A stretch of DNA of 64,000 nucleotides from assembly GCF_015694735.1 (NCBI RefSeq), contig NZ_JADQDP010000008.1, positions 62,001 through 126,000 of the forward strand, in the 5' to 3' direction. Made by a program: the position numbers and the translations under genes. The notes under the pieces are model-generated. The model ran no database searches. It saw nothing but the letters and a program-made list of their open reading frames with translations, and was not told the origin of the DNA. The DNA comes from Hymenobacter properus (GTDB lineage Bacteria > Bacteroidota > Bacteroidia > Cytophagales > Hymenobacteraceae). Shown here piece after piece: positions 27,777-53,820 of the stretch (positions are counted from its first letter, which is position 1; each line of letters begins with the position of its first letter).

Positions 27777-28382
27777 TTAACGCGCCGACTTCGCCAGCTT
27801 ATCCAGCGCCGCTTTGAACTCGGGCGTGTCGTACTCGGCCATGCCGTCGTGGCGGGCCGCAACCTGCCCGTCGGGGCCGAGGATGACGGTGGACGGGATG
27901 GAGTTGGAATCGAAGGGAGCGGGCAGGTCGCCGGTGCGCAGGTACACCGGGAAGGTGTAGCCCTGGGCCTGCACAAACTTGCGGGCTTTGGCCGCGTCGT
28001 CGTCGAGCGAGAGCATCACGAAGGCCACTTTCGACTTGTCAACTTTCTTGTACAGCGCTTCAATGCCGGGCATTTCGGCGCGGCAGGGCGGGCACCAGCT
28101 GGCCCACAGGTTCACGAATACCACCTTGCCTTTCAGGTCGCTCAGGTTGACGGGTTTCCCGTCGAGCGTGACCATGGGCAGGTTGTGAGGGTAGGCAGCG
28201 CCGCCGGTGAGCACCACCGGCATAGCGGCGGCGGGGGCCGTGGCAGGCACTTCGGCTTTCCAGAGGCCGGTAGCCAGCAGGCCGCGCTGCACGCCGCCGA
28301 GCACGATGGGCCGCAGGGGCGTGAACATAACGAGGGCGAACAGGGCCAGCGGCAGCCAGGAGGTGAGGGTCTTGCGATTCAT
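27777..28382 (-). CDS. membrane-anchored TlpA/ResA-like thioredoxin
   Basis: 201 aa. One N-terminal membrane anchor (residues 8-27) then a periplasmic thioredoxin fold with WASWCPPC (Cys97, Cys100) and cis-Pro region NSIPSTVILGPDG. TlpA proteins reduce disulfides in the periplasm, for example apocytochrome c or copper chaperones. It has its own promoter in the 53-bp gap to the RND adaptor gene, with an ATGAA-N6-TTCAT site matching those of the sulfur-island ArsR gene, so a link to persulfide stress is likely. Confidence 0.88.
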   Translation of the reverse strand: MNRKTLTSWLPLALFALVMFTPLRPIVLGGVQRGLLATGLWKAEVPATAPAAAMPVVLTGGAAYPHNLPMVTLDGKPVNLSDLKGKVVFVNLWASWCPPCRAEMPGIEALYKKVDKSKVAFVMLSLDDDAAKARKFVQAQGYTFPVYLRTGDLPAPFDSNSIPSTVILGPDGQVAARHDGMAEYDTPEFKAALDKLAKSAR

Positions 28383-28406: not shown

Positions 28407-28432
28407 CAAAGTTAATATGAACAAAGTTTCAT
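28407..28432 (-). promoter_or_regulatory. tlpA promoter: -7 box TAACTTTG and ArsR-type operator
   Basis: On the minus strand ATGAA-ACTTTG-TTCAT (28432-28417) is followed after 2 nt by TAACTTTG (28414-28407), a perfect TAnnTTTG box. The operator matches the sites at 37450-37465 and 37833-37848 exactly in its arms and spacing. Confidence 0.7.
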
Positions 28433-28435
28433 TTG

Positions 28436-29602
28436 TTAAGCGCCGGCGGGTTTTGGCTTCGCCACGGTGACGGGCTGGCCGTCGGCCACCTGTTCGGAGG
28501 CTTCGCGCAGCAGCGCATCGCCGGGGGCTAGCGGGCCGAATACTTCCACCGTGTCGCGGCTCAGCAGCTGGCCCCGGCGCACGGGCACCCACTGGGCGCG
28601 GCCGTCGTGCACCCGGATAACCTGGCTCTGCTTAGGCTGGTCGGGGCGGGCAAACACGGCGGCCGTGGGCACCGCTATTGACTGGGCCGCCGTGGGCAGG
28701 GCCACCAGCACCTGGGCGTACATGCCGGCCTTGAGCTGGCCATTGGCATTAGGCACGTCCATTTCCACCAGCTCCGAGCGCACCGTTTGGCTGAGGCGGT
28801 CAGCGTTGCGGCGGTACACGCCCATGAAGGTGCGGCCCGGAAAGGCCGGCACGGTGAACGGCACTTTCGCCCCCGGTTTCAGCCACTGGCCGGCGGCGGC
28901 TTCGGGCACGGCCACTTCCAGGCGCAGGGTCTGGTTGTTTTCGAGCGAAAACATCGGCGCGGCGGGCTGGCCGCCGCCCGGCCCCACCAGCGCGCCGGCC
29001 GACACGTTGCGGGCCGAAATGACGCCGCCGAACGGGGCGCGCACCACTAGGTAGTTGCTCAGCTCGCGGCTGGCCTGCCACTCAGAATAGGCGGCCTGCA
29101 CGCCTGCCTGGTCACCCTGCATCTCGGCGCGGGCGCGCTCCAGGTCGTTGGGCGAGATGGTGCCCGGCTCCTGGCTGGTGCGCAGCAGGCGGTCGTAGCT
29201 GGCCTTGGTGCCGGAAAGCTTGGCCTGCGCCGCCTGCCAGCGCGAGCGGGCGCGGGCCAGCTGGGCGGCCAGCTCGGGGGCTTCGAGCACGGCCAGAGTC
29301 TGGCCTTTGGTTACGCAGGTGCCCCGGTCCACCAGCACTTGTTTCACGAAGGCCCCCACGCGGGGGAAGATGTCGACCTGCTCGAAGGGCTTGAGCTCGC
29401 CGGGCAGGCGCAGACGCCGCACGGCCGGCGCGTCGGTCAGGGTAAAGGTGGTGACGGGCGCGGCCACCGGGGCCGCCGGCTGGGCCGCGGCATCGGCCTC
29501 GGCCGGGCCATCGGAAGAGGAGCAGCCGGCCAGGGACAGGCCGGCCGTCAGCAGGGCCGCGCCCCGGCGCAGCATTGTAGGAAGATTTAGGAAATCAGGC
29601 AT
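28436..29602 (-). CDS. RND efflux periplasmic adaptor lipoprotein
   Basis: 388 aa membrane fusion protein. Lipobox SLAGC (Cys27). Barrel-sandwich half VDIFPRVGAFVKQVLVDRGT, a short alpha-hairpin of about 70 residues, second half VVRAPFGGVISARNVSAGAL, then beta-barrel. It should connect the pump at 29634 to the TolC protein at 32803; the three form one leftward operon (gaps 31 and 4 bp). The motif TTCTCCCTTTTGT lies 8 nt before its ATG. Confidence 0.92.
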   Translation of the reverse strand: MPDFLNLPTMLRRGAALLTAGLSLAGCSSSDGPAEADAAAQPAAPVAAPVTTFTLTDAPAVRRLRLPGELKPFEQVDIFPRVGAFVKQVLVDRGTCVTKGQTLAVLEAPELAAQLARARSRWQAAQAKLSGTKASYDRLLRTSQEPGTISPNDLERARAEMQGDQAGVQAAYSEWQASRELSNYLVVRAPFGGVISARNVSAGALVGPGGGQPAAPMFSLENNQTLRLEVAVPEAAAGQWLKPGAKVPFTVPAFPGRTFMGVYRRNADRLSQTVRSELVEMDVPNANGQLKAGMYAQVLVALPTAAQSIAVPTAAVFARPDQPKQSQVIRVHDGRAQWVPVRRGQLLSRDTVEVFGPLAPGDALLREASEQVADGQPVTVAKPKPAGA

Positions 29603-29633
29603 GAGCGATACAAAAGGGAGAAATCAATGAGAA

Positions 29634-32600
29634 TTAGGCCGCCTGCCGGGTGCGCGTGGGCAGCATCGACACCGACGCGAACCCGACCCGGCCCATGGCC
29701 CAGCCAAACACGTGGGGCAGCACCAGCAGCGAGGCCAGCGTAGAGGCAATGAGCCCGCCGATGACGGCCTGGCCCAGCGGGGCAATCTGGTCGCCGCCCT
29801 CGCCCAGGCCCGAGGCCATGGGCAGCATGCCGGCCAGCATGGCGATGCTTGTCATCAGGATGGGCCGGATGCGGGTATCGGCGGCCCGGCGAGCGGCTTC
29901 GAGCGCGTCCCGGTGCTCGTGGCGCAGGTGGTCGGCGCTGGTGATGAGCAGAATGGCGTTGGCCACTGAGACGCCCACCGACATAATCATGCCCATGTAG
30001 GACTGCAGATTGAGCGTGGCCCCGCAGGCCAGCAGCATCAGCAGCGAGCCCGCCACCACGGCCGGCACCACCGAGAGCACCACCAGCGAGAGGCGAAAGC
30101 TCTGGAAGTTGGCCGCCAGCAGCAGGAATATCACCACGATGGCCATGCCCAGGCCGGTCTGCAGGCTGCTCATGGTGTCGGCCAGCAGCTGGGGCTGGCC
30201 CACCAGGTTCACCACCACGCCGCGCGGCGGCTCGCCGGCCTGCTTAATGGCTTGGCGCACGGCTTTAGCGGCGGTGCCCAGGTCGCGGCCCTGCACGTTG
30301 GCCGTGATGCTCACCAGCCGGTAAGGACCCTGGCGGTCAATCTCGCCGGGCATCATCCGGGCCGAGATGCTGGCCACCTCCCCCACCGTGGGCCGGGCCT
30401 GGCCGGGCTTCACGGGCAGGGCTTCGAGGTCCTGAATCTGGCTGAGCTGGTCGTCGGGCAGCTGCACCTGCACCTGGTAGCCGAGGCCGGACTTGGGGTC
30501 GAGCCAGAGGTTTTTGCTGGTGAAACGGCTGGACGAGGTGGCCGCCACCACCGACTGGGTGATTTCCTGGCTGGTGAGGCCGAACTGGGCGGCCCGCTCC
30601 CGGTCCACGTCGATGCGCAGGGCCGGGTACTGCAGGGGCTGGGCAATCTGCACGTCGCGCAGGTAGGGAATCCGCTTCAGCTCGGCCAGCACCTTGCGGG
30701 CCTGGCCGGCGGCTTCCTTGAGGTTTTTGCCGCCCACGTTCACCTGAATGGGCGTGGGCGCGCCGTCGCTCATTACCTTTTCCACCAATTCAATCGGCTC
30801 GAAGCTCAGCAGCAAGCCCGGATGGGCCTGCCCGATGCGCCGGCGCAGGCGCTCCTTGAGCTGGTTGAGGTTCACGTGCACGCCCTCTTTCAAGGCCACC
30901 TGCATGATGGCCTCGTGCGGGCCGGTGGTGAACACGAAAATGGAATTCACCGCGAAGCTCGCCGGCTGGGTGCCCACGAAGGTGGACGAGATTTCCACGT
31001 TCTGCGGCCCCACTTCCTGGTTGATGAGGGCCTGCACGGCGGCCACGGTCTTTTCGGTCTGCTCCAGGCGGGTGCCCACCTTTTCGCGCAGCCGCAGCTG
31101 GAACTGCCCGCTATTGGCCTGCGGGAAAATATCGGTGCCGATGAAGGCAAAGCCGGCCCCTACCACCAGCACGCTCAGCGCGAGGTAGCCGAGCACAATA
31201 CCCCGCCGCCGGCCCTGGCCGCGCACAAGCAGGCGCTGGTAGCCGGCCTGAAAGCGGGCGAAAAAGCCGGTTTTTTCGGCGTGGCCGTCGGCCGCGTGGT
31301 TGGTATCGTGGCCGGGCGCGTGGTCCTTGAGCAGCCAGTTGGCCATCACGGGCACCAGGGTTTGCGAGAGCAGGAACGAGGCCACCATGGCGAAGCCCAC
31401 GGCCAGCGACAGGGGTAGGAACATGGCGCGCGGCACCCCCACCATAATCAGGGCCGGCGCGAACACGGCCAGCACGCAGAGCAGAATCAGCAGTTTGGGC
31501 AGGGCAATTTCGCGGGCCGCGTCCCAGATGGCCTGGGCCTTGGTTTTGCCCTTTTCCAGGTGCTGGTGAATGTTTTCGATGGTCACCGTGGCCTCGTCCA
31601 CCAGCACGCCGATGGCCAGCGCCAGGCCCGACAGGGTCATGATGTTGAGCGTCTGCCCGAAGAGCTTGAGCAGAATCACGGCCGAGAGCACCGAGAGCGG
31701 AATGGTGGTAATGACGATGATGACGCTGCGCCAGTCGCGCAGAAACAGCAGCACCATTAGGCCCGTGAGCACCGCGCCAAGGATGCCCTCGGTGACCAGG
31801 CTTTTGAGCGAGTTGGCCACGTACACCGACTGGTCGAAGGCGTAGCTCAGCTTCACATCCTCGGGCAGCAGTGCCCGCAGAGTGGGCAGCTTGTCCTTCA
31901 CTTCCTGCACCACTTTCAGGGTCGAGGCGTCAGCTTTTTTGATGACGGGCATATAGATGGCCCGCTTGCCGTTGATGACGGCGTAGCCCGTAGTGATGTC
32001 GGCCGCGTCTTCCACCGTGGCCACGTCGCGCAGGTACACGCCGGGGCCGGCCCCGGTGCGCAGCGGCACATCCAGAAAGTCGGCGGGGTTCTCAATCAGC
32101 GAGTTCACCGGGGCCATGTAGGCCAGAGTACCCATCTTCACGTTACCGGCCGCCGAGGGCTGGTTGCTGGCCACGATGGCCTTCACCACGTCGTCGGGCG
32201 TGAGCTGGTAGCCGCGCAGCTTCGCCGGGTCGGCCTTCACCACGATGGTGCGGATATTGCCGCCGAACGGGGCCGTGGACGTGACGCCCGGAATGGTGGT
32301 GAACATGGGCCGGATGCGGCTGGCGGCCAAATCCTGGAGCTGGGTGAGCGAGCTTTTATCGCTTTCCAGTACCAGCTGGCCCACCGGCAGCGAGCTGGCA
32401 TCGAAGCGTACCACCTGCGGGGGCAGCGTGCCGAGCGGCATAAACGCCGTGGCCCGCGACACCTGGGTAGCCACCTCGGCGGCGGCCTGGGCCATGTCGG
32501 TGCCGGGGTAAAAGGAGAGCTTGATGAGCGTCAGCCCCTGAATGCTTTTGGTTTCAATCTTCTTGACCCCGGACACGAACAGGAAGTTGTTCTGGAACTG

Positions 32601-32798
32601 GTTGGCCATGAAGCCGTCGAGCTGCTCGGGCGAGAGCCCGCCGTAGGGCTCGGCCACGTAGATGGCCGGCACGTCCATGCTCGGGAAGATGTCCACGGCA
32701 ATGTCGCGCACGGCGGCGAAGGCGAAAAAGAGGATGGCCAGCATGGCCACCACCACGGAGATGGGCCGCTGTAGGGCCGACCGGATAAGTTCGTACAT
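29634..32798 (-). CDS. HAE1/AcrB-like RND efflux permease
   Basis: 1054 aa, full length. N-terminus MYELIRSALQRPISVVVAML and 12 membrane helices with two large periplasmic loops. TM4 has LALAIGVLVDEATVTIENI, where a single Asp and Glu replace the DD pair of AcrB and the heavy-metal signature is absent, placing it with the MdtABC-like/hydrophobe branch. Substrates (drugs, solvents, or organic metabolites) cannot be read from sequence. It is a second efflux system distinct from the metal pump at 16886. Confidence 0.92.
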   Translation of the reverse strand: MYELIRSALQRPISVVVAMLAILFFAFAAVRDIAVDIFPSMDVPAIYVAEPYGGLSPEQLDGFMANQFQNNFLFVSGVKKIETKSIQGLTLIKLSFYPGTDMAQAAAEVATQVSRATAFMPLGTLPPQVVRFDASSLPVGQLVLESDKSSLTQLQDLAASRIRPMFTTIPGVTSTAPFGGNIRTIVVKADPAKLRGYQLTPDDVVKAIVASNQPSAAGNVKMGTLAYMAPVNSLIENPADFLDVPLRTGAGPGVYLRDVATVEDAADITTGYAVINGKRAIYMPVIKKADASTLKVVQEVKDKLPTLRALLPEDVKLSYAFDQSVYVANSLKSLVTEGILGAVLTGLMVLLFLRDWRSVIIVITTIPLSVLSAVILLKLFGQTLNIMTLSGLALAIGVLVDEATVTIENIHQHLEKGKTKAQAIWDAAREIALPKLLILLCVLAVFAPALIMVGVPRAMFLPLSLAVGFAMVASFLLSQTLVPVMANWLLKDHAPGHDTNHAADGHAEKTGFFARFQAGYQRLLVRGQGRRRGIVLGYLALSVLVVGAGFAFIGTDIFPQANSGQFQLRLREKVGTRLEQTEKTVAAVQALINQEVGPQNVEISSTFVGTQPASFAVNSIFVFTTGPHEAIMQVALKEGVHVNLNQLKERLRRRIGQAHPGLLLSFEPIELVEKVMSDGAPTPIQVNVGGKNLKEAAGQARKVLAELKRIPYLRDVQIAQPLQYPALRIDVDRERAAQFGLTSQEITQSVVAATSSSRFTSKNLWLDPKSGLGYQVQVQLPDDQLSQIQDLEALPVKPGQARPTVGEVASISARMMPGEIDRQGPYRLVSITANVQGRDLGTAAKAVRQAIKQAGEPPRGVVVNLVGQPQLLADTMSSLQTGLGMAIVVIFLLLAANFQSFRLSLVVLSVVPAVVAGSLLMLLACGATLNLQSYMGMIMSVGVSVANAILLITSADHLRHEHRDALEAARRAADTRIRPILMTSIAMLAGMLPMASGLGEGGDQIAPLGQAVIGGLIASTLASLLVLPHVFGWAMGRVGFASVSMLPTRTRQAA

Positions 32799-32802
32799 GC
32801 GG

Positions 32803-34215
32803 CTAGGGCGTTACGTGGGTGAAAAAGAAGGAGAAGTCGCCGGCGGCGGCGGTTTGCAGCAGCACGGCCTGCCAGGCGGCATTGGCGGTGAGCACCTGGT
32901 CCTGCTCGGCCTGTTGCAGCCCGTAGAGGGCCTGCGTCACGTCGACCACCGTGGCCAGTCCGGAATTGTAGAGGGCCAGCTTCTGGCGGTAGGCCTGGCG
33001 GGCGGCGGCCAGCTGCACGGGCGCTTCCCGCGCGCGGTCAGCGGCCAGCGCGAGGCGCTGCCCGGCCAGCGTGGCCTGGTTGCCAAGCTCCAGCTGCTGC
33101 TGGCGGTACTCGGCCTGCAGCCCCTGGGTGCGCAGGTTTTCGGCCCGCGCCTGGGCCTGCAGGCGCGGCCAGTCCAGCAGGTCAAACACCAGGCCCACGC
33201 CCACGGCGTAGTTGAAGCGGGTGGGCGCGGCCCCGGTCAGGCCGTAATCGGTCTGGCCGTTGTAGCCCAGGCCCGAGCCCCGGCCCCAGGTGGCGCCCAG
33301 CAGCGAAAGCCGGGGCCGGTAGCTGCGCCGAATGACCGTTTCGCGCGCCTGCCCCAGCTCTACGGCCCGCTGCTGGAAACCCAGCGTGGGGTGGGTGGCC
33401 GGGGGCGGGGCCAGCGTGGGCGGCAGGGACCGGTTGTAGAGGGTATCGGGCTGCCAGGTAGCGCCGGGCTGCCCCAGCAGGGTCGAAAGCCGGGCCTGCC
33501 GGTCGGCTTCCTGCTCGCGGGCCGCAATCAGGGCCAGCTGCGACTGGGCCACGGTGGCGCGGGCCAGGGTGCTGTCCACGCCCGGGCGCAGCCCGTTGAG
33601 CGCCAGCCGGGTAATGGTCTTTTTCAGAGTACCCACCCGGCGCACGTCCTGCTCGCGCACCCGGCGCAGGCTTTGGGTGGCCAGCAGGTCGAGGTAGGTC
33701 TGGGCCACGCGCAACTGCTGGGTAAACCACTCGTTGTCGGCATCGGCCTGGGCGTAGCCGCGGGCGGCCTCGGCGCGGGCCAGCTGGGCCGGGTACTGGC
33801 CGAAGGTAACCGGGCTCCACTCGGCCAGCGCCGTGCCCATGCTGCCGAACACGGCGTTGTAGGAGTTCACCCCGCTGAGCGAGCCGCTGCTGGGAATGAT
33901 GGTGCCGATGGGCAGCATGGTGCCGGCCACGGCATTGGTCGAACCGTAGCTCACCTGCCCGCTGAGCCGCACCGAAGGCAGGCGCTGGGTCTTGGTTTGG
34001 GTGATGTCGGCCTCGGCGGCCTGCACCTGGTAGGCCTTGGCCTGCAGGTGGGGGGCATTGCGATGGGCCAGCTCCAGGGCTTCGGGCAGGGAAAGGGGCC
34101 GGGGGGGCGCCGGCTGCTGCGCCCGGCTGGCCGGTCCCGCCAGAAGCAGGGCCAGCACCAGCCGCCGGCTGCCGGGCGGGAGGCGCCGGGCAGCGGTTAC
34201 AAAAGAAAAAAACAT
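32803..34215 (-). CDS. TolC-family outer membrane efflux protein
   Basis: 470 aa from ATG 34215, giving a normal Sec signal peptide ending PASRAQ. The body has the internal duplication of TolC proteins: LPEALELAHRNAPHLQAKAY and the second-half helix starting with LGFQQRAVELGQARE. The stop overlaps the promoter-proximal part of the pump gene by a 4-bp gap, so it is the first gene of the TolC-RND-adaptor operon. Confidence 0.9.
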   Translation of the reverse strand: MFFSFVTAARRLPPGSRRLVLALLLAGPASRAQQPAPPRPLSLPEALELAHRNAPHLQAKAYQVQAAEADITQTKTQRLPSVRLSGQVSYGSTNAVAGTMLPIGTIIPSSGSLSGVNSYNAVFGSMGTALAEWSPVTFGQYPAQLARAEAARGYAQADADNEWFTQQLRVAQTYLDLLATQSLRRVREQDVRRVGTLKKTITRLALNGLRPGVDSTLARATVAQSQLALIAAREQEADRQARLSTLLGQPGATWQPDTLYNRSLPPTLAPPPATHPTLGFQQRAVELGQARETVIRRSYRPRLSLLGATWGRGSGLGYNGQTDYGLTGAAPTRFNYAVGVGLVFDLLDWPRLQAQARAENLRTQGLQAEYRQQQLELGNQATLAGQRLALAADRAREAPVQLAAARQAYRQKLALYNSGLATVVDVTQALYGLQQAEQDQVLTANAAWQAVLLQTAAAGDFSFFFTHVTP

Positions 34216-34387
34216 AAGTTCCGAGAAGTCAGGACAGAAATCCGGGCGGGCGGCGACCATAGGCGCAGCCCGCCTGCTAACAGGCAGATTTGCTGGGGAT
34301 TCTCAGGAAAATGCGGGGCCCTAGCGGCCAGCGGCAACGAGGGCTAAGCCGCTCTGCGCCGGGAGTGTGCCCGGCCGGTTCGGGCAT

Positions 34388-34419
34388 AAAAAAACCGGCT
34401 GCCGGCCCGTAAATCGGGC
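34388..34419 (-). terminator. probable intrinsic terminator of the gene at 34461
   Basis: Read leftward: stem GCCCG-ATTTA-CGGGC, then CCGGCAGCCGG and a run of seven T. It lies 42 bp after the stop of the leftward gene at 34461, upstream of the TolC operon, which therefore needs its own promoter in 34216-34387. Confidence 0.55.
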
Positions 34420-34460
34420 ACAGCTAACCGGGCGTAAACCCGGCTCCTCCGCGCATTTTC

Positions 34461-34832
34461 CTAAGAAAAGCGGACGGGCGGAGCCTTATTGGGGTGGTTG
34501 GCAAAAACCTGCGCGGGGCCGGCATTCGGGCCCCGGGCGGGGTTAAGCGTGGGCTGGGGGGCCGGGAACAGCAGGCCGAAGTACAGCGCCGCGAAGTCGC
34601 CGCCGAGGCAGAGGTCCAGCGGCAGCAGTTTGGCCTGGGCTTGGTGGGCCTGCTCCGCCTGCGGGGCGGCCTGCACGGTTTGCAGCTTCTTCTGGCAGAG
34701 GCTGCCCCGACGTTGCTCCTGGCGGTTGCCGCCGGCATCATCGGCCCCTTCCGCGCGAGCGGGCAGCGGTTGGCAATGCAGGTAAACCCCCGCATAAATC
34801 AGCAACAGCAAATGGGACAACAGACGGGACAT
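34461..34832 (-). CDS. small secreted protein upstream of the RND operon
   Basis: 123 aa with a signal peptide (MSRLLSHLLLLIYAGVYLHC, ending ARA). The mature part is Gln- and Ala-rich with two Cys (SLCQKK, LDLCLGG). No family match seen. A -7-like box CACCTTTG (34859-34852, minus strand) gives a 20-nt leader. Its place ahead of an efflux operon mirrors the Cys-rich protein at 16385, but the sequences do not align clearly. Confidence 0.5.
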   Translation of the reverse strand: MSRLLSHLLLLIYAGVYLHCQPLPARAEGADDAGGNRQEQRRGSLCQKKLQTVQAAPQAEQAHQAQAKLLPLDLCLGGDFAALYFGLLFPAPQPTLNPARGPNAGPAQVFANHPNKAPPVRFS

Positions 34833-34970
34833 TCGGTCAGGTTAGGCAACGCAAAGGTGCGGACTTTTTCATTAAAGCGTCGAAGTCAAAGGCGCGGCGA
34901 GCCGTAGAATAGTTGCTTATTACTGCAAACAATCCATTTCACGGCCCACCCGCTACCTCTATTCAGCTCA

Positions 34971-35633
34971 CTAAAGCAGCCGGCCGACGGCGGTGTAAAA
35001 AGCATCCTGCCGGTCTGCCAGCTTCTGGAGATTTACACCGGCCAGCGAATTATCGCGCCCATAATACTTCTTCAGCGAAGCGTCCGCTAAGTCCCGTAAA
35101 TCGTGTAGCATGGCATAAAATTCCATGATGAACGAATAGTTGAGAATTCCGCTCACTGGCCCGCGTTGGAAAGCCCGGTCAATCCGGCTCTCTCGGCTCA
35201 GAAAGAAGAACGTCGATATATCGTAGCGGTAGCCAACCCCAATGGTATTGGCTTTCATCAACAGCGCCCGCTGCTTCGGCGTCAGCAGCTTGATTCTTCG
35301 TTTAGCCCGGCCTTCGACCTTGAGGTAAAGCTTTTCCAAGTCGTGACCCGTTCTTCGTGCTACTTTGTAGGCATCTTCCGGGGTTTCCCCTTTTAGTGAC
35401 AGGCTAATTATCAGGGATTTCAGCGCGCACTCCGCACTCATCAAAAGGTCGACATACATTTTGGCAAAATAGGCCGTCGTATCATGGGGCCGGTTCTGGT
35501 TCAACAAGCCTACCCGCCACAAAAAATCATTGGCATCCGCCGCGAAAGAAGAGGCGATTTTCCACTTTAATTGGCTGTCGGCATTGAATGGGTTGTTGCC
35601 CAAAAGCTGTTGCAGGTTTACGATGTTACTCAT
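34971..35633 (-). CDS. hypothetical helical protein, possibly HEPN-like
   Basis: 220 aa, all-helical, lower GC than its flanks. The stretch SAECALKSLIISLSLKGETP followed by ARRTGHDLEKLY resembles HEPN-type helical bundles, which often have GHDLxKL after a basic helix. The catalytic Rx4-6H motif is not clearly present. No neighbour suggests a partner; it lies alone between two islands. Identity uncertain. Confidence 0.5.
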   Translation of the reverse strand: MSNIVNLQQLLGNNPFNADSQLKWKIASSFAADANDFLWRVGLLNQNRPHDTTAYFAKMYVDLLMSAECALKSLIISLSLKGETPEDAYKVARRTGHDLEKLYLKVEGRAKRRIKLLTPKQRALLMKANTIGVGYRYDISTFFFLSRESRIDRAFQRGPVSGILNYSFIMEFYAMLHDLRDLADASLKKYYGRDNSLAGVNLQKLADRQDAFYTAVGRLL

Positions 35634-35730
35634 ACAGTGTTAGTTATCAAATTTTATTTCTTCCCAACATGGGCAGATATAAAATGATAGGGTTGGAATC
35701 CACATTAGTTTGCGGCCCAAACCAATTATT

Positions 35731-37377
35731 TTACTTCGCCGGTACGATGCGCACGGCGGCCAGCGTGGGCGGGGCCACGGTGCCGCGCCGCCGCAGTCCG
35801 GTTTCCACCACGTCGGTTACTTTCTGGTCCAGCTTCTTAATGTTGTCTCCTTCGGCAAACGTGGTGTAGCGGTGAATGCCGCTGAGCATGCCGTTGTGGG
35901 TGACCACGCGGTAGCTCCGGTCAGCCGCCAATGGCTGGCCGTTTACCCGCACGTCACGCACGCGCTGACCCACCGGCCGGTTCAGGTCGGCCGTCCAGGC
36001 CAGGCCGCTGGACTGAATGAGCCCGCCCACCCGCTTCAAATCGTCGCCGGGGTTCAGGTTGGTGGCGCTCTGTTCGAGCAGAGCGGTGAGTTGGCGGCCC
36101 GTCAGCGTCAGCGTGACCAGCTTGGAGGGGTGCGGCAGCAGCGTATAAAGGGCTTCGCGGGTGATGGGGCCGGCTTCGAGCGAGACGCCATAGCCTACGC
36201 CGGGCAGAAAGGCAACCTCCGCCCCCGTGGCTTCACGCAGCAGCGCGCCGGCCAGCTGGTCGAAGGGGCTGGCCGACTTATACTGCCGGCCGATGCGCCC
36301 TGTGGCGGTAGCTACCCGCGCTTCCAGCTGCGCTTTGTAGGGCGCGCGCAGGGAGTCGACCAGCCGGGCCACGGCGGGGTCGGCCGGGTAATCAGCGGTC
36401 CATAGCGTGGGGGCCTGGCCCTCCACCGCCACTACTTTGCCCGCCTGCACCTGCACGGTGAGCTGGCCGAGCACGGCGGCGTCGGACAGCGCCTGCACTA
36501 TCCACGTCGCGCCCACACGGCGCGGGGGCGTAATACGGTCGTGGGAGTGGGCTCCGATGATGAGGTCGATGCCGGGCACTTCGCGGGCCAGCCGCTCGTC
36601 CACCCTGGTGCCCTGGTGCGACACCACGACCACCACGTCGGCGCGGGCGCGCAGGGCCGGCAGGTAGCGGCGGGCGGCGGCCAGGCCGCTGCCAAAGGTG
36701 AGGTCTTTGGTGTTGTCAGGGTTGCCGGTAAGGGCCGTGTTGTGGTAGGCCAGGGCCAGCAGGCCCACGCGCACGCCGCCCACGGTGCGCACCGTGGTGG
36801 GGTCGCCGAGGAAGGGCTGGCCGGTGGCCTTATCCAGCACGTTGGCCCCGCGCATGGGGAAATGGGCCAGCTGCTGCAGCGCGCGGGTGCGGGCGCTGCC
36901 GTACTCAAAATCGTGGTTGCCGAGGGCCATGAACTGGTAGCCCACGGCGTTCAGCAGGTGGATAAGTGCCTCCCCCTTGGTCAGGTTGCCGAGCAAATCA
37001 TCCCCGAACGTGTCGCCGCCGTCCACCAGCAGCACGTTGGCCGCCCCGCGCTGCGCCCGCACCCGTTTGATGGCCGTGGCCAGGTGGGCAAACCCGCCCA
37101 CGGTGCCCGCGTGCTCAAACGAGCTGGGCAGCCGGCCGGCATCGCCGGTCTGGGCGGTGGCGTTGCCGGGAGCCACGGCGAAGGGCCGGTGCCGGCCGTG
37201 GATGTCGTTGGTGTGCAGAATGGTGAAGCTGCCGGAAGCCAGGGGCGCGGCGGGCGCGGCCTTTTCCGTTTGCTGCGGGGCCGAGTTGCAGGCCGCCAGC
37301 AGCAGGCTCGCGCCGAGCGTGCAAGCAGCGAACCGACCCGTAAAGGCCTTTCTAGCCGGGTGAGAAGGGTTTTTCAT
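35731..37377 (-). CDS. 5'-nucleotidase/UshA-family metallophosphatase lipoprotein
   Basis: 548 aa. Lipobox LLLAAC (Cys30) anchors it in a membrane facing the periplasm. The dimetal core has all motifs: HTNDIHGRH, DGGDTFGDD, LGNHDFEYG, VSHQGTRVD and GAHSHDRI. The C-terminal 5'-nucleotidase domain follows from about residue 340. It should hydrolyse nucleotides or related phosphoesters outside the cytoplasm. It is divergent from arsR (103-bp gap), so it may share that promoter region but shows the normal GNHD motif, unlike the SoxB-like protein at 56014. Confidence 0.88.
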   Translation of the reverse strand: MKNPSHPARKAFTGRFAACTLGASLLLAACNSAPQQTEKAAPAAPLASGSFTILHTNDIHGRHRPFAVAPGNATAQTGDAGRLPSSFEHAGTVGGFAHLATAIKRVRAQRGAANVLLVDGGDTFGDDLLGNLTKGEALIHLLNAVGYQFMALGNHDFEYGSARTRALQQLAHFPMRGANVLDKATGQPFLGDPTTVRTVGGVRVGLLALAYHNTALTGNPDNTKDLTFGSGLAAARRYLPALRARADVVVVVSHQGTRVDERLAREVPGIDLIIGAHSHDRITPPRRVGATWIVQALSDAAVLGQLTVQVQAGKVVAVEGQAPTLWTADYPADPAVARLVDSLRAPYKAQLEARVATATGRIGRQYKSASPFDQLAGALLREATGAEVAFLPGVGYGVSLEAGPITREALYTLLPHPSKLVTLTLTGRQLTALLEQSATNLNPGDDLKRVGGLIQSSGLAWTADLNRPVGQRVRDVRVNGQPLAADRSYRVVTHNGMLSGIHRYTTFAEGDNIKKLDQKVTDVVETGLRRRGTVAPPTLAAVRIVPAK

Positions 37378-37447
37378 GCGGGGGAAAGCGCAGGCTTTCG
37401 AGAAAATGAAGAAACTCCGTGAACTTATTGGGTGGGTACGATTGTAC

Positions 37448-37472
37448 GTATGAAAAGTTGTTCATACATTTG
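37448..37472 (+). promoter_or_regulatory. arsR promoter: -7 box and overlapping operator
   Basis: GTATGAA-N6-TTCATAC (37448-37467) overlaps the -7 box TACATTTG (37465-37472); the -33 element is TTG near 37442. The ATG is 8 nt after the box. An operator across a -7 box is the expected autorepression site of an ArsR protein. Confidence 0.75.
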
Positions 37473-37480
37473 CACTCGTT

Positions 37481-37804
37481 ATGACACCCACCGCTTCCCC
37501 CGTTGCCGTTGACATGGGCCTCTCCGTCGAGAAGATGGAGAAGGTGGCCTTCATTCTCAAGACCACGGCCCACCCCACGCGCATTGCCATCGTGCAGCTG
37601 CTGGCGGCCACCGACAGTCTCTCGGTGACGGACATCAGCGAAAAGCTCAACGTCGAGCAAAGCCTGCTTTCGCACCACCTCTCGGGCATGAAGCTCAAGG
37701 GCATTCTCAGCAGCACCCGCGACGGCAAAAACATCTACTACGCCCTGAAAATGCGCGAAGTAATCGACGTGATTCAGTGCCTGGCCGCGTGCACCTTCCT
37801 GTAA
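37481..37804 (+). CDS. ArsR-family repressor, probable sulfur (persulfide) sensor
   Basis: 107 aa. Winged helix: AHPTRIAIVQLLAATD, recognition segment LNVEQSLLSHHLSGMKLKGI, wing STRDGKNIYYAL. The classic metal ELCVCD motif is absent; the only Cys are Cys100 and Cys104 at the C-terminus (VIQCLAACTFL). BigR and SqrR sense persulfides with two Cys of an ArsR fold, though at other positions. Neighbours are a TauE permease and persulfide dioxygenase, so sulfide or persulfide sensing is inferred. Matching operators precede this gene, tauE and tlpA. Confidence 0.8.
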   Translation: MTPTASPVAVDMGLSVEKMEKVAFILKTTAHPTRIAIVQLLAATDSLSVTDISEKLNVEQSLLSHHLSGMKLKGILSSTRDGKNIYYALKMREVIDVIQCLAACTFL

Positions 37805-37832
37805 GCGGCGCGGCTTTTTTTTGCCGCAATAC

Positions 37833-37856
37833 ATGAACAACCATTCATAATTTCAT
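37833..37856 (+). promoter_or_regulatory. operator and -7-like box before the sulfur operon
   Basis: ATGAA-CAACCA-TTCAT (37833-37848) runs into TAATTTCA (37848-37855), with the same geometry as the arsR promoter, where the last T of TTCAT is the first base of the -7 box. It lies 22 bp before the tauE ATG, so the operon can be derepressed apart from arsR. Confidence 0.7.
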
Positions 37857-37869
37857 ACGTTACACCCTC

Positions 37870-38688
37870 ATGCTCCACTACATCGGCTACTTCGCCGCCA
37901 TCTTCATTGGCCTCTCGCTCGGCATCATGGGCGGGGGCGGTTCCATCCTCACCGTGCCGGTGCTGGTTTATCTGATGGGCGTGAGCCCGGTGCTCAGCAC
38001 GGCCTACTCGCTGTTCGTGGTCGGCAGCACGTCGGTAGTCGGCGCGTCGGGCTACTTCCGCAAGGGGTTGGTGTCGCTGAAAACCGCCATCGTTTTTCTG
38101 ATTCCTTCGCTCATGGCCGTGTTTGCGGTGCGCAAGGTGCTCATGCCCGCCATCCCGCACGTGCTGTTCACGGTGGGCAGCATCGTCTTCACCAAAGACC
38201 TGCTGGTGCTCGTGGCCTTCGCAGTGCTGATGGTGGTGGCGGCCACCTCCATGATTCGCAGCAAACAGGCTGAAGAAGTACTCGATGAGGAGCTGCACCA
38301 CAAGCATAAATTCAACTATCCGCTCATTCTCACCATCGGCCTGGTGGTGGGCACACTCACGGGCTTCGTGGGGGCGGGCGGGGGCTTCCTCATCATTCCG
38401 GCCCTGGTGCTGGGCGCGCGCCTGCCCATGAAGCTGGCCGTGGGCACCTCGCTGGCCATCATTGCCCTGAACTCGCTCATCGGCTTCACCGGCGATTTGA
38501 GTGCGGGCACGCCCATCGCCTGGTCGTTTTTACTGGGCTTCCTCGCCTTTGCCCTCGGCGGCATCGTGCTGGGCACCTACCTGGCCCGCTTCATTCCGGG
38601 CGCTAAGCTCAAGCCGGCCTTCGGCTGGTTCACGCTGGCCATGGGCACGTTTATTCTGACCAAAGAGCTGCTGTTTCACCACGTTTAA
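37870..38688 (+). CDS. TauE/SafE (TSUP) family permease
   Basis: 272 aa, about eight membrane helices. The two TSUP half-motifs are present: GIMGGGGSILTVPVLVY and GTLTGFVGAGGGFLIIPALV. Family members export or import sulfite, organosulfonates and related anions; in the Staphylococcus aureus cst locus a TauE protein works with persulfide dioxygenase CstB and SQR. It is the first gene of the sulfur operon here, and sulfite export is the best inference. Confidence 0.88.
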   Translation: MLHYIGYFAAIFIGLSLGIMGGGGSILTVPVLVYLMGVSPVLSTAYSLFVVGSTSVVGASGYFRKGLVSLKTAIVFLIPSLMAVFAVRKVLMPAIPHVLFTVGSIVFTKDLLVLVAFAVLMVVAATSMIRSKQAEEVLDEELHHKHKFNYPLILTIGLVVGTLTGFVGAGGGFLIIPALVLGARLPMKLAVGTSLAIIALNSLIGFTGDLSAGTPIAWSFLLGFLAFALGGIVLGTYLARFIPGAKLKPAFGWFTLAMGTFILTKELLFHHV

Positions 38689-38746
38689 TCAACCATTTAA
38701 CGCTTTTCCGCTCCCGTTTCTTTCACCCGTTTTTTCGTTGCCAACC

Positions 38747-40102
38747 ATGAAAATCGAACAGTTTGAAGACAAGGGCCTGGCCCACTTCTCCTACGCCATC
38801 CTCAGCGAGTGCGCCCGCGAAATCGTCCTCATCGACCCGGCCCGCAACCCGCAGCAATACTACGACTACGCGAAAGCGAATGACGCCAAAATCGTGGCCG
38901 TCATCGAAACCCACCCCCACGCCGACTTCGTCTCGTCGCACCTGGAAATCGCGCAGGCCACCGGGGCCGTCATCCGCGTGAGTAAGCTGCTCGGGGCCGA
39001 CTACGCCCACGAGGGATTCGACGAGGGGCAGGAGTTCACCGTGGGCAAGCTCACCTTCCGCGCCCTGAACACACCCGGCCACTCGCCCGATTCGCTCAGC
39101 ATCGTGCTCAGCCGCGAGGGTAAGGACGAGGCCGTGTTCACCGGCGACACCTTGTTCATCGGCGACGTGGGCCGGCCCGACCTGCGCGAAAATGCGGGTA
39201 ACATGACCGCCAAGCGCGAGGAGCTGGCCAAGCAGATGTATCACTCGCTGCGCGAAAAGCTGATGCCGCTGGCCGCCGACGTGCTGGTGTACCCCGCCCA
39301 CGGCGCGGGTTCGCTCTGCGGCAAAGCCCTGGGCGGTGCCAACAGCAGCAGCATCGGGGCCGAAAAAGCCGGTAACCCCATGCTGCGCCCCCTGAGCGAA
39401 GAAGACTTTGTAAAAGAGCTGCTGGCCGACCAGCCGTTCATCCCCAAGTACTTCGGCTACGATGTGGCGCTGAACAAAGCCGGTGCGCCCGACTATGCGC
39501 CGAGCGTGCAGCAGGTGAAGCGCTTGGCCCCCGGCGCGAAGCTGGAAGCCGGGGCGGTCATCATCGACACCCGGCCCGAAGCCGAGTTCAAAAAAGGCCA
39601 CGTGGACGGCGCCATCAACATCCAGCAGGGCGGCAAGTTCGAAACCTGGCTGGGCTCCATCGTGGGGCCGGAGGAGTCCTACTACCTGATTGCTGCCGAC
39701 GAGGCGACGCTGGAAGACCTGATTCAGAAAACGGCCAAAATCGGCTACGAGCCGCTGATTAAAGGCGCGCTGGTGGGTACCCCGGCCACCGAGGCCACCA
39801 TGCCGGTGCTCGACGTACCGACCTTCCGCGAGCACCCGGAGAACTACACCATCGTGGACATCCGCAACCCCGTGGAGCACCGCGACGAGCCTATTTTCGA
39901 TGGCTCGCTCAACATTCCGCTGCCCGAGCTGCGCGAGCGGGCCGGCGAGATTCCGACCGATAAGCCGGTGGTGGTGCACTGCGCGGGCGGCTACCGTTCG
40001 GCGGCCGGCAGCAGCATCGTGGCCGACGCCCTGCCCGGCACCGCAGTGCTCGACTTGAGCGAGGCCGTGAAGTCCTTCCAGTCGGCTTCGGCGGCCCACT
40101 AA
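38747..40102 (+). CDS. persulfide dioxygenase (ETHE1/CstB-like) fused to two rhodanese domains
   Basis: 451 aa from ATG 38747. Residues 1-250 form a metallo-beta-lactamase fold with THPHADFVSSH (His56, His58, Asp60), NTPGHSPDSLS and FTGDTLFIGDVGRPDL, the non-haem iron pattern of persulfide dioxygenases. Two rhodanese domains follow: the first (IIDTRPEAEFKKGHVDGAIN) lacks a catalytic Cys, the second has VHCAGGYRSA with Cys412. The reaction is glutathione or bacillithiol-type persulfide plus oxygen to sulfite, with sulfur transfer to or from thiosulfate. Same layout as CstB of S. aureus. Confidence 0.9.
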   Translation: MKIEQFEDKGLAHFSYAILSECAREIVLIDPARNPQQYYDYAKANDAKIVAVIETHPHADFVSSHLEIAQATGAVIRVSKLLGADYAHEGFDEGQEFTVGKLTFRALNTPGHSPDSLSIVLSREGKDEAVFTGDTLFIGDVGRPDLRENAGNMTAKREELAKQMYHSLREKLMPLAADVLVYPAHGAGSLCGKALGGANSSSIGAEKAGNPMLRPLSEEDFVKELLADQPFIPKYFGYDVALNKAGAPDYAPSVQQVKRLAPGAKLEAGAVIIDTRPEAEFKKGHVDGAINIQQGGKFETWLGSIVGPEESYYLIAADEATLEDLIQKTAKIGYEPLIKGALVGTPATEATMPVLDVPTFREHPENYTIVDIRNPVEHRDEPIFDGSLNIPLPELRERAGEIPTDKPVVVHCAGGYRSAAGSSIVADALPGTAVLDLSEAVKSFQSASAAH

Positions 40103-40195: not shown

Positions 40196-40537
40196 ATGTT
40201 CGGTTTCAATAAAACTTCCGCCCCTGCTTTTCAAAACCTGACGCCCGCGCAGTTTGCCGAGGGCCTGCGCCAGCCCGGCGCGGTGCTCGTGGACGTGCGC
40301 CGGCCCGACGAATTCGCCGCCGGCCACCTGCCCGGCGCGGTCAACATCGAAGTCACCGCGCCCGACTTCGGCCAGCGCGTGGCGGCCCTGGACAAAACCA
40401 AGCCCACCTACGTGTACTGCCGCAGCGGCGCGCGTTCGGCCAACGCGGCCGGCCAGCTCACCACCGCCGGTTTCGCGCAGGTCAGCAACCTACTCGGCGG
40501 CGTGATGGACTGGCCGGGACAACTGACGACTAAATAA
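40196..40537 (+). CDS. single-domain rhodanese sulfurtransferase
   Basis: 113 aa, one rhodanese domain without signal peptide. [20 protein letters not shown] and the active loop YCRSGARS with Cys75 are intact. It can carry sulfane sulfur as a Cys persulfide between the dioxygenase-rhodanese upstream and the thiosulfate or sulfur transporters downstream. The gap to the previous gene is 93 bp, to the next 30 bp. Confidence 0.9.
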
Positions 40538-40567: not shown

Positions 40568-41128
40568 ATGCTTGAACTCCTGCAACAACCCTGGCCCTGG
40601 TACGTGGCCGGCCCTTTAATTGGCCTCACGGTGCCCGCGCTGCTGCTCGTGGGGAATAAGGCGCTGGGCATCAGCTCCTCGCTGCGCCACGTGTGCGCGG
40701 CCTGCGTACCGGCCGGCATTCCCTTTCTGACTTATAACTGGCGGGCCGAAATCTGGAACCTGGTGTTCGTGCTCGGCATCGCGCTGGGCGGTTTCATCGG
40801 CTACCGGCTCATGGGCCACCCCGACGTTATCGGCATCTCGGCCGCCACGGTGCGTGACCTGAAGGCCGAAATGCACCTGACGGACTTCACCGGCCTGCTG
40901 CCCAAAGAGCTGTTCGCCCTCGACAACTTGGCGAATTGGAAAGGCTGGGTCTTCCTGGTGCTGGGCGGCTTTCTGGTGGGCTTCGGCACGCGCTACGCCG
41001 GCGGCTGCACCTCGGGCCACGCCATCTCGGGCCTCTCGAACCTGCAGTGGGTGTCGCTGGTGGCCGTCATCGGCTTCTTTGCCGGTGGCCTGCTCATGAC
41101 CTGGGTGATTTACCCCATGATGTTTTAA
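40568..41128 (+). CDS. YeeE/YedE-family transporter, first half
   Basis: 186 aa, five or six membrane helices. The key motif [16 protein letters not shown] (Cys147) matches the Cys site of TsuA/YeeE, which passes thiosulfate by hydrogen bonding to Cys residues. Here the protein is split: this half and the one at 41792 together carry the two expected Cys motifs. Thiosulfate or sulfide-related uptake is inferred. Confidence 0.85.
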
Positions 41129-41147
41129 TCCCTTGAATCACCGTTAT

Positions 41148-41795
41148 ATGGAAGCGCTTGCCCCCACCGCCGTCGATTTCTGGGATGCCCGCTATGAGGG
41201 CGAAACCTACGCTTACGGCACCGAGCCGAATGCCTACTTCCGCCAGCAGCTGGAGGCGCTGCCGCCCGGCCGCCTGCTGCTGCTGGCCGAGGGCGAGGGC
41301 CGCAACGCCGTGTACGCCGCCAAGCGCGGCTGGCAGGTTACGGCCGTGGATTTCAGCGACGAGGGCCGGGCCAAAGCCCTGCGCCTGGCCCTGGCCCAGG
41401 GCGTGCGCCTCGACTACCAGGTGGCCGACCTTACGGCGCTGGGCTGGCAGCAGCCCGGCCACTACGATGCCGTGGGCCTCATTTACGCCCACCTAGCGCC
41501 CGCAGACCGCCGGGCGGTGCACGCCGCCGCTACCGCCAGCCTGGCCCCCGGCGGCTACCTCATCCTGGAAGCCTTCAGCCCCCGGCAGCTGGGCCTGCCC
41601 TCGGGCGGCCCCAAGACCGCCGAAATGCTCTACGAGCCGGCTACGCTGGCCGAAGACTTCGACGGGCTGAACCTCCTCGAAAACCACGCGCTGGGCGTGG
41701 TGCTGCACGAAGGCAGCTTCCACGCCGGCCCGGCCAACGTGGTGCGCCTGCTGGGCGTGCGCGATTCCTCCTCTGAACTCACTTACTGCATATGA
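41148..41795 (+). CDS. SAM-dependent methyltransferase (TehB/TPMT-like)
   Basis: 215 aa from ATG 41148 (MEALAPTAVDFWDARY). Rossmann motif I is seen as LLLLAEGEGRNAVYAAKRGW, motif II VTAVDFSDEG, later DAVGLIYAHL. The WDARY-GTEPN N-terminus is typical of thiopurine/tellurite-type methyltransferases, which methylate small thiols or chalcogen anions. It overlaps the next gene (ATGA at 41792) and lies inside the split YeeE pair, so methylation of a sulfur species is inferred. Confidence 0.82.
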   Translation: MEALAPTAVDFWDARYEGETYAYGTEPNAYFRQQLEALPPGRLLLLAEGEGRNAVYAAKRGWQVTAVDFSDEGRAKALRLALAQGVRLDYQVADLTALGWQQPGHYDAVGLIYAHLAPADRRAVHAAATASLAPGGYLILEAFSPRQLGLPSGGPKTAEMLYEPATLAEDFDGLNLLENHALGVVLHEGSFHAGPANVVRLLGVRDSSSELTYCI

Positions 41796-42202
41796 AATAT
41801 TTCAAATACCTGGTGCTGGGCACGTTGTTCGGCATCATTCTCACCAAAAGCGAAGTCATCAGCTGGTTTCGGATTCAGGAAATGTTCCGCTTCCAGGCCT
41901 TCCACATGTACGGCGTCATCGGCTCGGCCATTCTGGTGGGCATGATTTCCATTCAGCTCATCAAGCGCAACCGCCTCAAGTCGATTGATGGCGAGCCCAT
42001 CGTGCTGGCCGACAAGAAATTCAACCACGGCATCTGGATTGGGGGCTTCATTTTCGGCCTCGGCTGGGCGCTCACCGGGGCCTGCCCCGGCCCGCTGTTC
42101 GCGCAGCTGGGCAGCGGCATTGGCTCGGCCGCCGTGCTGATTCTGGCCGCCCTGGCCGGCACCTGGACCTACAGTGCCCTGCGCGAAAAGCTGCCTTACT
42201 AA
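41792..42202 (+). CDS. YeeE/YedE-family transporter, second half (DUF6691-like)
   Basis: 136 aa, four membrane helices. FGLGWALTGACPGPLFAQLG carries the second Cys motif (Cys98). Paired with the protein at 40568 it would rebuild a full-length YeeE. Its start overlaps the methyltransferase stop, so the two are translated together. Confidence 0.85.
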   Translation: MKYFKYLVLGTLFGIILTKSEVISWFRIQEMFRFQAFHMYGVIGSAILVGMISIQLIKRNRLKSIDGEPIVLADKKFNHGIWIGGFIFGLGWALTGACPGPLFAQLGSGIGSAAVLILAALAGTWTYSALREKLPY

Positions 42203-48686: not shown

Positions 48687-48736
48687 TTTGTCCGTAAATC
48701 GCCCTGATTGGTGTCTTTTCAGGGGTTTTTAGCAGC

Positions 48737-48756
48737 GGTACATTTGTAAATGTACC
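48737..48756. promoter_or_regulatory. palindrome over the -7 box of the oxidase operon
   Basis: GGTACATTTGTAAATGTACC, a perfect palindrome with a 2-nt centre. It contains the -7 box TACATTTG (48739-48746). ATG of subunit II is 66 nt downstream. A dimeric regulator bound here would block or tune the promoter. Confidence 0.65.
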
Positions 48757-48811
48757 AGCGCACCTGCCCGGCCGAGTGGCCGGAGCCGGGGGCGCGGCCT
48801 GGTAAAAGCTC

Positions 48812-49834: not shown

Positions 49835-49854
49835 CCCTTCGCTCTCCCTGATTC

Positions 49855-51708: not shown

Positions 51709-51761
51709 GCGCCGGGTGTTTGCCCGGCGGCTGTTTCCTCCACTTTTCCTTGTTCATCGTC

Positions 51762-52582: not shown

Positions 52583-52642
52583 CGCGTCGGGTTTTTAAGC
52601 GGCCGACGGCCGCCCTTCCCCCTTCTTACCAAAGTCGATTTT

Positions 52643-52963: not shown

Positions 52964-53029
52964 GGCTGCGGGCTGGCCAGCCCGCGTTTCCCCGCATTTT
53001 CAATTCCCCCATTTTCCCAATTCAATTCA

Positions 53030-53686: not shown

Positions 53687-53692
53687 CCGGCC

Positions 53693-53778: not shown

Positions 53779-53820
53779 ATGAAAAAATGTTTAAGTGTTA
53801 ATATGTTCATGCGTATCTTG
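53779..53820 (+). promoter_or_regulatory. sqr promoter with a degenerate copy of the ArsR-type site
   Basis: ATGAA-AAAATG-TTTAA (53779-53794) matches the ATGAA-N6-TTCAT operator with two changes in the second arm. A single perfect arm TTCAT (53806-53810) lies 3 nt before the -7 box TATCTTG (53814-53820), as at tlpA. Weaker evidence than the three perfect sites. Confidence 0.4.

Follow-up and report, generated by a model that had tools for sequence, protein, structure and literature searches.

All known ArsR-family sensors of reactive sulfur have been assigned to cluster 4 of a sequence similarity network (SSN), whose members carry one cysteine in helix alpha2 and one in alpha5 and whose genes colocalise with rhodanese and sulfur-transporter genes; As(III) sensors whose ligands all come from alpha5 are among the members of cluster 5 of the same network, and cluster 6 holds RexT, with two cysteines in alpha3 (PMC10509353, in the part drawn on here). 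Here, we describe an ArsR-family regulator of Hymenobacter properus that has both of its cysteines at the C-terminal end, together with the operator and genes with which it is associated. Its gene, arsR, lies in a 64,000-nucleotide stretch (the window; bases 62001-126000 of a 150-kb contig) of a genome totalling 5.54 Mb. Judged from sequence, the protein is almost certainly a repressor with a regulon of three promoters, namely its own, that of a sulfur operon beginning with tauE, and that of the thioredoxin-like gene tlpA.

A shared operator at three promoters

The sequence-only reading of this stretch had placed palindromes of the form ATGAA-N6-TTCAT at 28417-28432, 37450-37465 and 37833-37848, and had proposed that they form a single operator common to the three promoters. 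All three lie exactly there. The features needed to follow the argument are these:

37450..37465, unstranded: Operator 1, ATGAA-AAGTTG-TTCAT, between a TTG (37442-37444) and the arsR -7 box
37833..37848, unstranded: Operator 2, ATGAA-CAACCA-TTCAT, 5' of the tauE operon
28417..28432, unstranded: Operator 3, ATGAAACTTTGTTCAT on the tlpA strand, ahead of tlpA
37465..37472, plus strand: -7 box TACATTTG of arsR, its first T being the operator's last T
37481..37804, plus strand: arsR, a 107-residue ArsR/SmtB-family regulator with an IQCLAACTFL end (Pfam HTH_5, NCBIfam HTH_metalloreg)
27777..28382, minus strand: tlpA, a TlpA/ResA-like thiol-disulfide oxidoreductase with WCPPC (Pfam Redoxin, 78.7 bits; NCBIfam ResA and TlpA models both below cut-off)

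These are the only three exact copies in the window, where 100 dinucleotide shuffles gave a mean of 0.01 and a largest count of 1. The replicon- and genome-wide pattern scan that the same reading had proposed returned the same three sites and no other in the whole genome, compared with two for a reversed-pattern control; when one mismatch is permitted, the 71 sites found, against 49 for the reversed control, are mostly noise.

The operator can be followed through 80 regions (mostly 20 kb) taken around the ArsR of relatives, four of them from genomes (g6) of a sister GTDB genus. Two pairs of regions look near-identical (L050/L051 and L107/L108) and are each counted twice, four weaker genus matches (L172-L175) were treated apart, and counts out of 81, 79 and 38 include the window. 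Exact sites lie within 150 bp upstream of 35 of the 81 arsR genes, 60 of the 79 tauE genes and 28 of the 38 tlpA genes, for which shuffle means were 0.03, 0.01 and 0.00, respectively. Of the remaining arsR promoters, 35 have a best site with one mismatch, 10 with two and 1 with three, while the other 19 tauE promoters all have a site with one mismatch; tauE was not found in two regions. Twenty of the 28 tlpA sites are the gene's own (about 49 bp before the start) and eight are, by position, the divergent operator of arsR (118-136 bp). Other spacers from 0 to 12 gave at most four matches and the reversed pattern none. The fuller form of the operator is ATGAACA-NN-TGTTCAT. From one relative to the next the arms stay the same and the centre differs, a pattern characteristic of a binding site.

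How far the regulon extends was gauged in a set of 120 genomes of the genus, 67 with this ArsR and 53 without. The mean number of exact sites per genome is 4.09 with the regulator (reversed control, 3.13) and 2.75 without it (reversed control, 3.53), and the site-minus-control difference separates the two groups (Mann-Whitney, p = 0.0002). For a tighter form, ATGAACA-N4-TTCAT, 117 sites were found in the 120 genomes, 87 of them within 12 kb of an ArsR match, and the remaining 30 are at background (19 in the 67 genomes with the regulator, 11 in the 53 without). Since outlying tight sites are similarly rare with or without the regulator, the regulon read by this motif appears to consist of these promoters and little else, and a genome-wide sulfur regulon was rejected on the same counts. 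The tight form occurs at no fewer than 55 of the 79 tauE promoters beside a regulator. Orthologues of tauE are present in nine of the 53 regulator-less genomes, eight of which have no tight site at all and the ninth one on another contig; this comparison is a genome-wide tight-site scan, and four of the genomes that it covers are not in the class defined by 90% completeness and 5% contamination. The fixed promoters in relatives, taken together with the want of a tight site at regulator-less tauE genes, point to a conserved ArsR operator serving a small regulon, as the proposal of a common operator held. A chance origin of the motif was rejected by the whole-genome scan, the promoter shuffles and the genus-wide counts.

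At arsR, the layout of the promoter suggests how the operator would act. Among the 70 arsR sites (relatives and window) that deviate from the motif at no more than one base, 63 have a perfect TAnnTTTG, which we take to be the Bacteroidota -7 consensus, starting at the palindrome's last T, and 58 have a TTG 17-26 nucleotides upstream. The operator thus overlaps the -7 box, and binding there would block the polymerase. The same overlap had been claimed for tauE, where it holds only loosely: the window has TAATTTCA at the -7 place, and a perfect TAnnTTTG is found at none of the 79 tauE promoters, TAnnTT at 41. BigR is itself reported to recognise the -10 region of its own operon (PMC5823870, in the part drawn on). 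Two further features of the arsR-tauE interval are recorded. In 78 of 79 tauE upstream regions, the interval from arsR to the tauE operator contains at least six consecutive T (37806-37832 in the window), perhaps an arsR terminator or a promoter element; the window run is flanked by GCGGC/GCCGC arms, and such a hairpin is not conserved, arms of 4 or more occurring in 14 of the 78. Many tauE promoters (uncounted) also have a further TTCAT or ACAT repeat just 3' of the operator (37840-37860; TTCATAAnTTCATACGTT), possibly a second half-site.

The genes downstream of Operator 2 in the window, all on the plus strand, are as follows:

37870..38688: tauE, sulfite exporter of the TauE/SafE family (Pfam TauE, 126.3 bits)
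38738..40102: persulfide-dioxygenase-like protein of metallo-beta-lactamase fold with two rhodanese stretches (Pfam Lactamase_B, 55.7 bits, and Rhodanese)
40196..40537: single-domain rhodanese (Pfam Rhodanese, 77.5 bits)
40568..41128: YedE1-type half transporter, Sulf_transp (Pfam PF04143, 65.3 bits)
41133..41795: S-adenosylmethionine-dependent methyltransferase between the YedE halves, absent from some relatives (Pfam Methyltransf_25)
41792..42202: YedE2-type half transporter (Pfam DUF6691 and Sulf_transp)
42231..43286: c-type cytochrome with two CxxCH and a SoxA/TsdA-like domain (Pfam PF21342 and Cytochrom_C)

The cytochrome gene, which is downstream in many relatives but not all, is possibly the end of the operon. 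Nine proteins of the regulon (the products of arsR, of tlpA and of the seven genes that begin with tauE and end with the cytochrome) were scanned, and none matched an arsenic or metal efflux family. Control of sulfur transferase, dioxygenase and transporter genes, a trait of the SSN cluster 4 persulfide sensors, is predicted here from the conserved operator.

The third target, tlpA, lies 9 kb upstream of arsR in the window and on the opposite strand, an RND (resistance-nodulation-division) efflux operon, a 5'-nucleotidase gene and smaller open reading frames (ORFs) standing between them. The two had been described as separate islands. In relatives, tlpA was found in 37 of the 80 arsR regions, always on the strand opposite to arsR, the whole gene being within about 1 kb upstream of arsR in 16 and 1.3-9.8 kb away in 21. 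Because tlpA is so often near arsR and always opposite to it, the two islands look like one locus, which was probably split here. Among the 21 distant tlpA genes, 17 have a site of their own within one mismatch, exact in 15. The RND operon (OEP, AcrB-type and CusB/HlyD-type genes; 28436-34260) ends directly ahead of tlpA on the same strand, so that tlpA may additionally be transcribed together with the pump genes; a similar coding tail is seen by eye ahead of tlpA in many relatives.

The remaining candidate member of the regulon was sqr, at which the sequence-only reading had noted a degenerate copy and one perfect arm:

53779..53794, unstranded: copy ahead of sqr with two mismatches, considered and left out of the regulon

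Its description of that site is accurate, the copy having two mismatches and the lone arm being TTCAT, whereas membership of sqr in the regulon finds no support. Of the 120 genus genomes, four have a close sqr, and inspection by eye of the DNA upstream of these four genes showed no exact or one-mismatch site; sqr was accordingly rejected. The gene belongs to a separate respiratory/sulfide cluster (47814-55077) comprising an AraC-type regulator, COX2/COX1, a peroxiredoxin (1-cysPrx C-terminal domain) and sqr, in which the window scan found no exact ArsR operator.

The regulator, its tail cysteines and its wider family

The arsR product is an ArsR/SmtB protein by profile (HTH_5 39.9 bits, cut-off 22; HTH_metalloreg 73.3, cut-off 55), by the predicted operator, a TGAA-N6-TTCA inverted repeat, at its own promoter, and by predicted fold. 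An AlphaFold2 (AF2) model with a mean pLDDT of 89 has helices at 16-29, 32-43, 49-56, 60-72 and 93-102 and strands at 76-81 and 84-89, giving the alpha1-alpha4-beta1-beta2-alpha5 arrangement of the family. Its best Foldseek matches are ArsR-type structures, and because this search returns ArsR structures of every class it cannot separate inducer classes. Profile scores against solved relatives run from PagR (70 bits) through HlyU (61), mycobacterial SmtB (59), SqrR (58) and YgaV (57) to BigR (54), the next metal sensors scoring about 50 bits or less. The NCBIfam BigR model NF040642 gives the window protein 56.3 bits, below its curated cut-off of 155; all 29 A1 members match this model at E<=0.001, the cut-off comparison having been made for the window protein only.

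The protein has exactly two cysteines, C100 and C104, and lacks metal-binding cysteine motifs, as had been noted. All 80 relatives retain the tail QC(L/I)AxC, and the alpha2 cysteine of SqrR aligns with Q39, which lies inside helix 32-43 and is Gln in all 80 as well, so that the claimed C-terminal CxxxC in place of the SqrR/BigR alpha2/alpha5 pair is upheld as a sequence feature. The cluster 4 pairing of a cysteine in alpha2 with one in alpha5 is therefore missing, as are the alpha3 CxC of canonical metal-sensing ArsRs (SSN cluster 1), the alpha3 cysteines of RexT-type proteins (cluster 6) and the three cysteines in or near alpha5 of the cluster 5 As(III) sensors; neither the window protein nor any of the 80 close relatives has a third tail cysteine. 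Three of the four weaker genus relatives keep the tail pair, and two of these, L174 and L175, resemble the 80 throughout. In the AF2 model, C100 is in the last turn of alpha5 (93-102) and C104 is two residues past the helix end; not being both fixed in one rigid helix would ease a bridge between them.

Outside the genus, a broader group, most of it Bacteroidota, has CxxxC or CxxxCxC tails, frequently with sulfur or thioredoxin genes alongside. In a Pontibacter group, represented by the best 30 of 48 relatives (39-52% identity to the window protein), the operator is exact at 21 loci and has one mismatch at nine (shuffles averaged 0.00 exact sites, and 0.48 when one mismatch was allowed), 29 of the 30 have a rhodanese gene downstream, and the tails are CxxxC in 25, one cysteine in four and none in one, with an extra cysteine at LKC in 24. 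A second ArsR paralogue of this group (L168-L171) ends CLEECC(I/L)DI and has no operator-type site within one mismatch nearby. A search of the order matched 119 of 291 genomes at E<=1e-18, and 49 of the 50 best non-Hymenobacter matches (L222-L270; the near-duplicate genome G240 left out) were examined, nine of which (L222-L230) hold less than 2 kb downstream, where adjacency may be missed. Their tails are CxxxCxC in 32, CxxxC in 10, one cysteine in one and none in six; the operator is exact at 19 and within one mismatch at 38 (shuffle means 0.02 and 1.43). Twenty-two of the 49 stand beside sulfur genes, with tails that are CxxxCxC in 11, CxxxC in 10 and a single cysteine in one.

A further set of 43 named non-Hymenobacter loci, drawn from the best 80 of at least 551 relatives, shares genomes with the order set, and the two sets of counts are not additive. 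Among these loci, 42 have CxxxC or CxxxCxC, 23 stand beside sulfur genes, and the operator is exact at 19 and within one mismatch at 31 (shuffle means 0.10 and 1.35). The set covers Cytophaga aurantiaca, Siphonobacter, Arcicella, Pedobacter arcticus and Microscilla, as well as contigs of metagenome-assembled genomes (MAGs) labelled Ignavibacteria and Desulfobulbaceae. Loci without the query genes still have sulfur or thiol neighbours, namely a sulfate permease (L310), a thioredoxin (L308) and a TPMT-type methyltransferase with a thioredoxin (L320). In four Bacteroidales loci (L330, L340, L344 and L350, two labelled Porphyromonas), a CxxxCxC ArsR gene with an exact operator is followed by DUF6132 and, one or two small ORFs further on, by a thioredoxin with a lipoprotein-like start.

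In a sample of the phylum, 29 of 395 genomes matched at E<=1e-18, with ArsRs of another group of the class (families f24 and f27) included, and the small number of matches indicates a patchy family. A tree of 90 hand-picked sequences (109 columns, rooted for drawing only) sets 86 of them apart from four f24-type ArsRs (100/100). The sulfur neighbourhood is scattered among the 86, with 15 changes, of which the starred branches force at least five, and the order of gains and losses is not fixed.

Proposed mechanism and its alternatives

From operator conservation, the regulon, the gene content and the cysteine pair, all read directly, we infer binding, repression, a sulfane-sulfur inducer and cysteine bridging as the trigger, in the following manner. 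The ArsR dimer would bind ATGAA-N6-TTCAT and at arsR would occupy the space between -33 and -7, blocking RNA polymerase; from the same operator it would also repress the tauE-dioxygenase-rhodanese-YedE1/E2 operon and tlpA. On accumulation of sulfane sulfur (persulfide or polysulfide), C100 and C104 would probably be bridged as a di- or polysulfide and the bridged dimer would leave the DNA. The derepressed cell could then import sulfur, oxidise it to sulfite, export the sulfite and re-reduce thiols. Sulfane sulfur is, in our judgement, a likely natural inducer; the whole, an autorepressor with a small fixed sulfur regulon released by sulfane sulfur through C100/C104, we regard as probable; and, with marginally less assurance, we hold the C100-C104 pair to be probably the switch.

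Several observations in relatives weigh against this reading. Within the genus, one weaker match (L172) has no site within one mismatch, and another (L173, from the 82%-complete genome G104) has lost the first tail cysteine. Five of the 30 Pontibacter-group loci with the operator lack one or both tail cysteines. In the order set, 27 of the 49 loci are not beside detected sulfur genes (21 CxxxCxC, six Cys-less), and families f18 and f2 consist in part of CxxxCxC members without a detected adjacent sulfur gene; a DUF2851 gene precedes the three f18/f2-type loci tested (L225, L231 and L236). The Cys-less f19 members (L244-L246, L249, L251 and L253) retain an exact operator, so that here the operator outlives the tail; the two loci tested (L244 and L246) have an aldehyde dehydrogenase gene downstream. 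In the f24/f27 group (L367-L379; 12 f24, one f27), none of the 13 ArsRs has an operator of this type, 10 are without any cysteine, and nine, six of them Cys-less, stand beside a dioxygenase-like gene, which means that such a neighbour is no proof of cysteine sensing. Finally, a prediction that genomes with an ArsR off sulfur genes would have the operator at their dioxygenase loci failed. In the 26 genomes searched (20 with CxxxCxC members off sulfur genes, six with Cys-less members), 25 of which yielded such loci, the exact operator was at none of 30 dioxygenase loci, within a 1.5-kb flank beyond which a site further upstream would be missed; the sole one-mismatch site, at L406, stands before tauE. 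Tail cysteines and sulfur genes thus coincide often but not always, and the relatives argue against a universal rule.

Three alternatives were weighed against sulfane-sulfur sensing by the tail pair. If the tail thiols (CxxxC or CxxxCxC) bound As(III), Cu(I) or another soft metal, the sulfur genes would answer metal-thiol stress. Precedents lie in As(III) sensors that draw all three cysteines from alpha5 (PMC10509353, in part) and in AfArsR, which holds As(III) by three cysteines in a short stretch of one chain (PMC11212059, in part). The CxxxCxC of many distant relatives would offer three thiolates, NCBIfam names the window protein only 'metalloregulator', the RND pump between arsR and tlpA includes a CusB/HlyD-type subunit, and a P-type ATPase gene is located at 22956-25079. 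However, the window protein and its 80 close relatives have two tail thiols and not three, and the conserved operator stands directly before sulfur and thioredoxin-like genes, with no arsenic or metal efflux match among the nine proteins scanned; we consider a metal or metalloid sensor unlikely. Slightly less likely again is a general thiol-redox sensor, in which peroxide or disulfide stress would form a C100-C104 disulfide in the manner of RexT and tlpA would be a main output. RexT senses H2O2 and upregulates thioredoxin (PMC8960804, in part), and thioredoxin-family genes recur near the regulators (tlpA here, two Flectobacillus loci and the four Bacteroidales loci), but the larger and most constant target set comprises the dioxygenase, rhodanese and sulfur transport genes, and the RexT pair is in alpha3 (PMC10509353, in part), a helix without cysteine here.

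The operator might also be real and its inducer read otherwise, with sulfite, thiosulfate or a partner protein as the signal and the tail cysteines otherwise employed. The Cys-less f24/f27 ArsRs beside a dioxygenase-like gene and the Cys-less f19 loci with an exact operator are what this explanation would lead one to expect. Yet two of the latter (L244 and L246) precede the aldehyde dehydrogenase gene and not sulfur genes, neither C100 nor C104 is substituted in any of the 80 relatives, and at least one tail cysteine is present at each of the 22 order-set loci beside sulfur genes; we give this explanation little credence.

Relation to described sensors

As a DNA site, the operator is not new: it is of the ordinary ArsR/SmtB type, sharing with the 12-2-12 operators of that family a TGAACA-NN-TGTTCA core, which one repeat in Table 2 of PMC8790569 also has (in the part drawn on). 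What sets it apart is that at arsR it is fused with a -7 box of Bacteroidota type and that it is sited at sulfur genes. The regulatory logic is likewise already known, and the novelty, as far as seen, lies in the arrangement of the cysteines, in the distribution of that arrangement in Bacteroidota and in tlpA as a target. More broadly, we put forward tentatively, as a proposal on which the balance is close to even and tilts slightly against, that a group of ArsRs, drawn here from records of Cytophagales, Bacteroidales and Sphingobacteriaceae and from a few MAGs that carry other taxon labels, moved the sulfane-sulfur site to a C-terminal CxxxC/CxxxCxC hook at the end of alpha5 independently of SqrR/BigR, and that one shared operator was wired to modules for persulfide oxidation, sulfur import, sulfite export and thioredoxin, including the DUF6132-thioredoxin sets of Porphyromonas and other Bacteroidales. 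Among the matches listed, titles and abstract starts of the open-licence literature contained no persulfide-responsive ArsR of Bacteroidota, and nothing on Cytophaga hutchinsonii with sulfane sulfur was found in that literature. If the proposal is true, the group would represent a second solution to persulfide specificity, directly comparable with the SqrR/BigR geometry, and would supply an operator and a reporter ready for use in studies of reactive sulfur in Bacteroidota; natural variants with one or both cysteines lost, or a third gained, would be built-in test cases.

Set beside individual systems, the regulator combines familiar parts in a different arrangement. BigR of Xylella and Agrobacterium uses Cys42 and Cys108, whereas here the alpha2 position is Gln and both cysteines are C-terminal; SqrR, HlyU and YgaV, which after PagR are among the best solved-structure relatives by profile, also have the alpha2/alpha5 pair. 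The alpha5 As(III) ArsRs (SSN cluster 5 and AfArsR) likewise place their cysteines near alpha5 at the chain end, but with three cysteines and arsenic genes, as against two cysteines and sulfur genes here. In gene content the nearest parallels are the bigR operon, with the same logic of ArsR, dioxygenase, sulfite exporter and YedE (PMC5823870, in part), and the yedE1E2-pdo loci of Cupriavidus and Agrobacterium, in which YedE1E2, a reported importer of zero-valent sulfur, is encoded beside an ArsR or persulfide dioxygenase gene (PMC10812762, in part). The survey in the latter, so far as the part drawn on extends, places YedE1/E2 almost only in Proteobacteria, whereas in the Hymenobacter loci the pair is standard.

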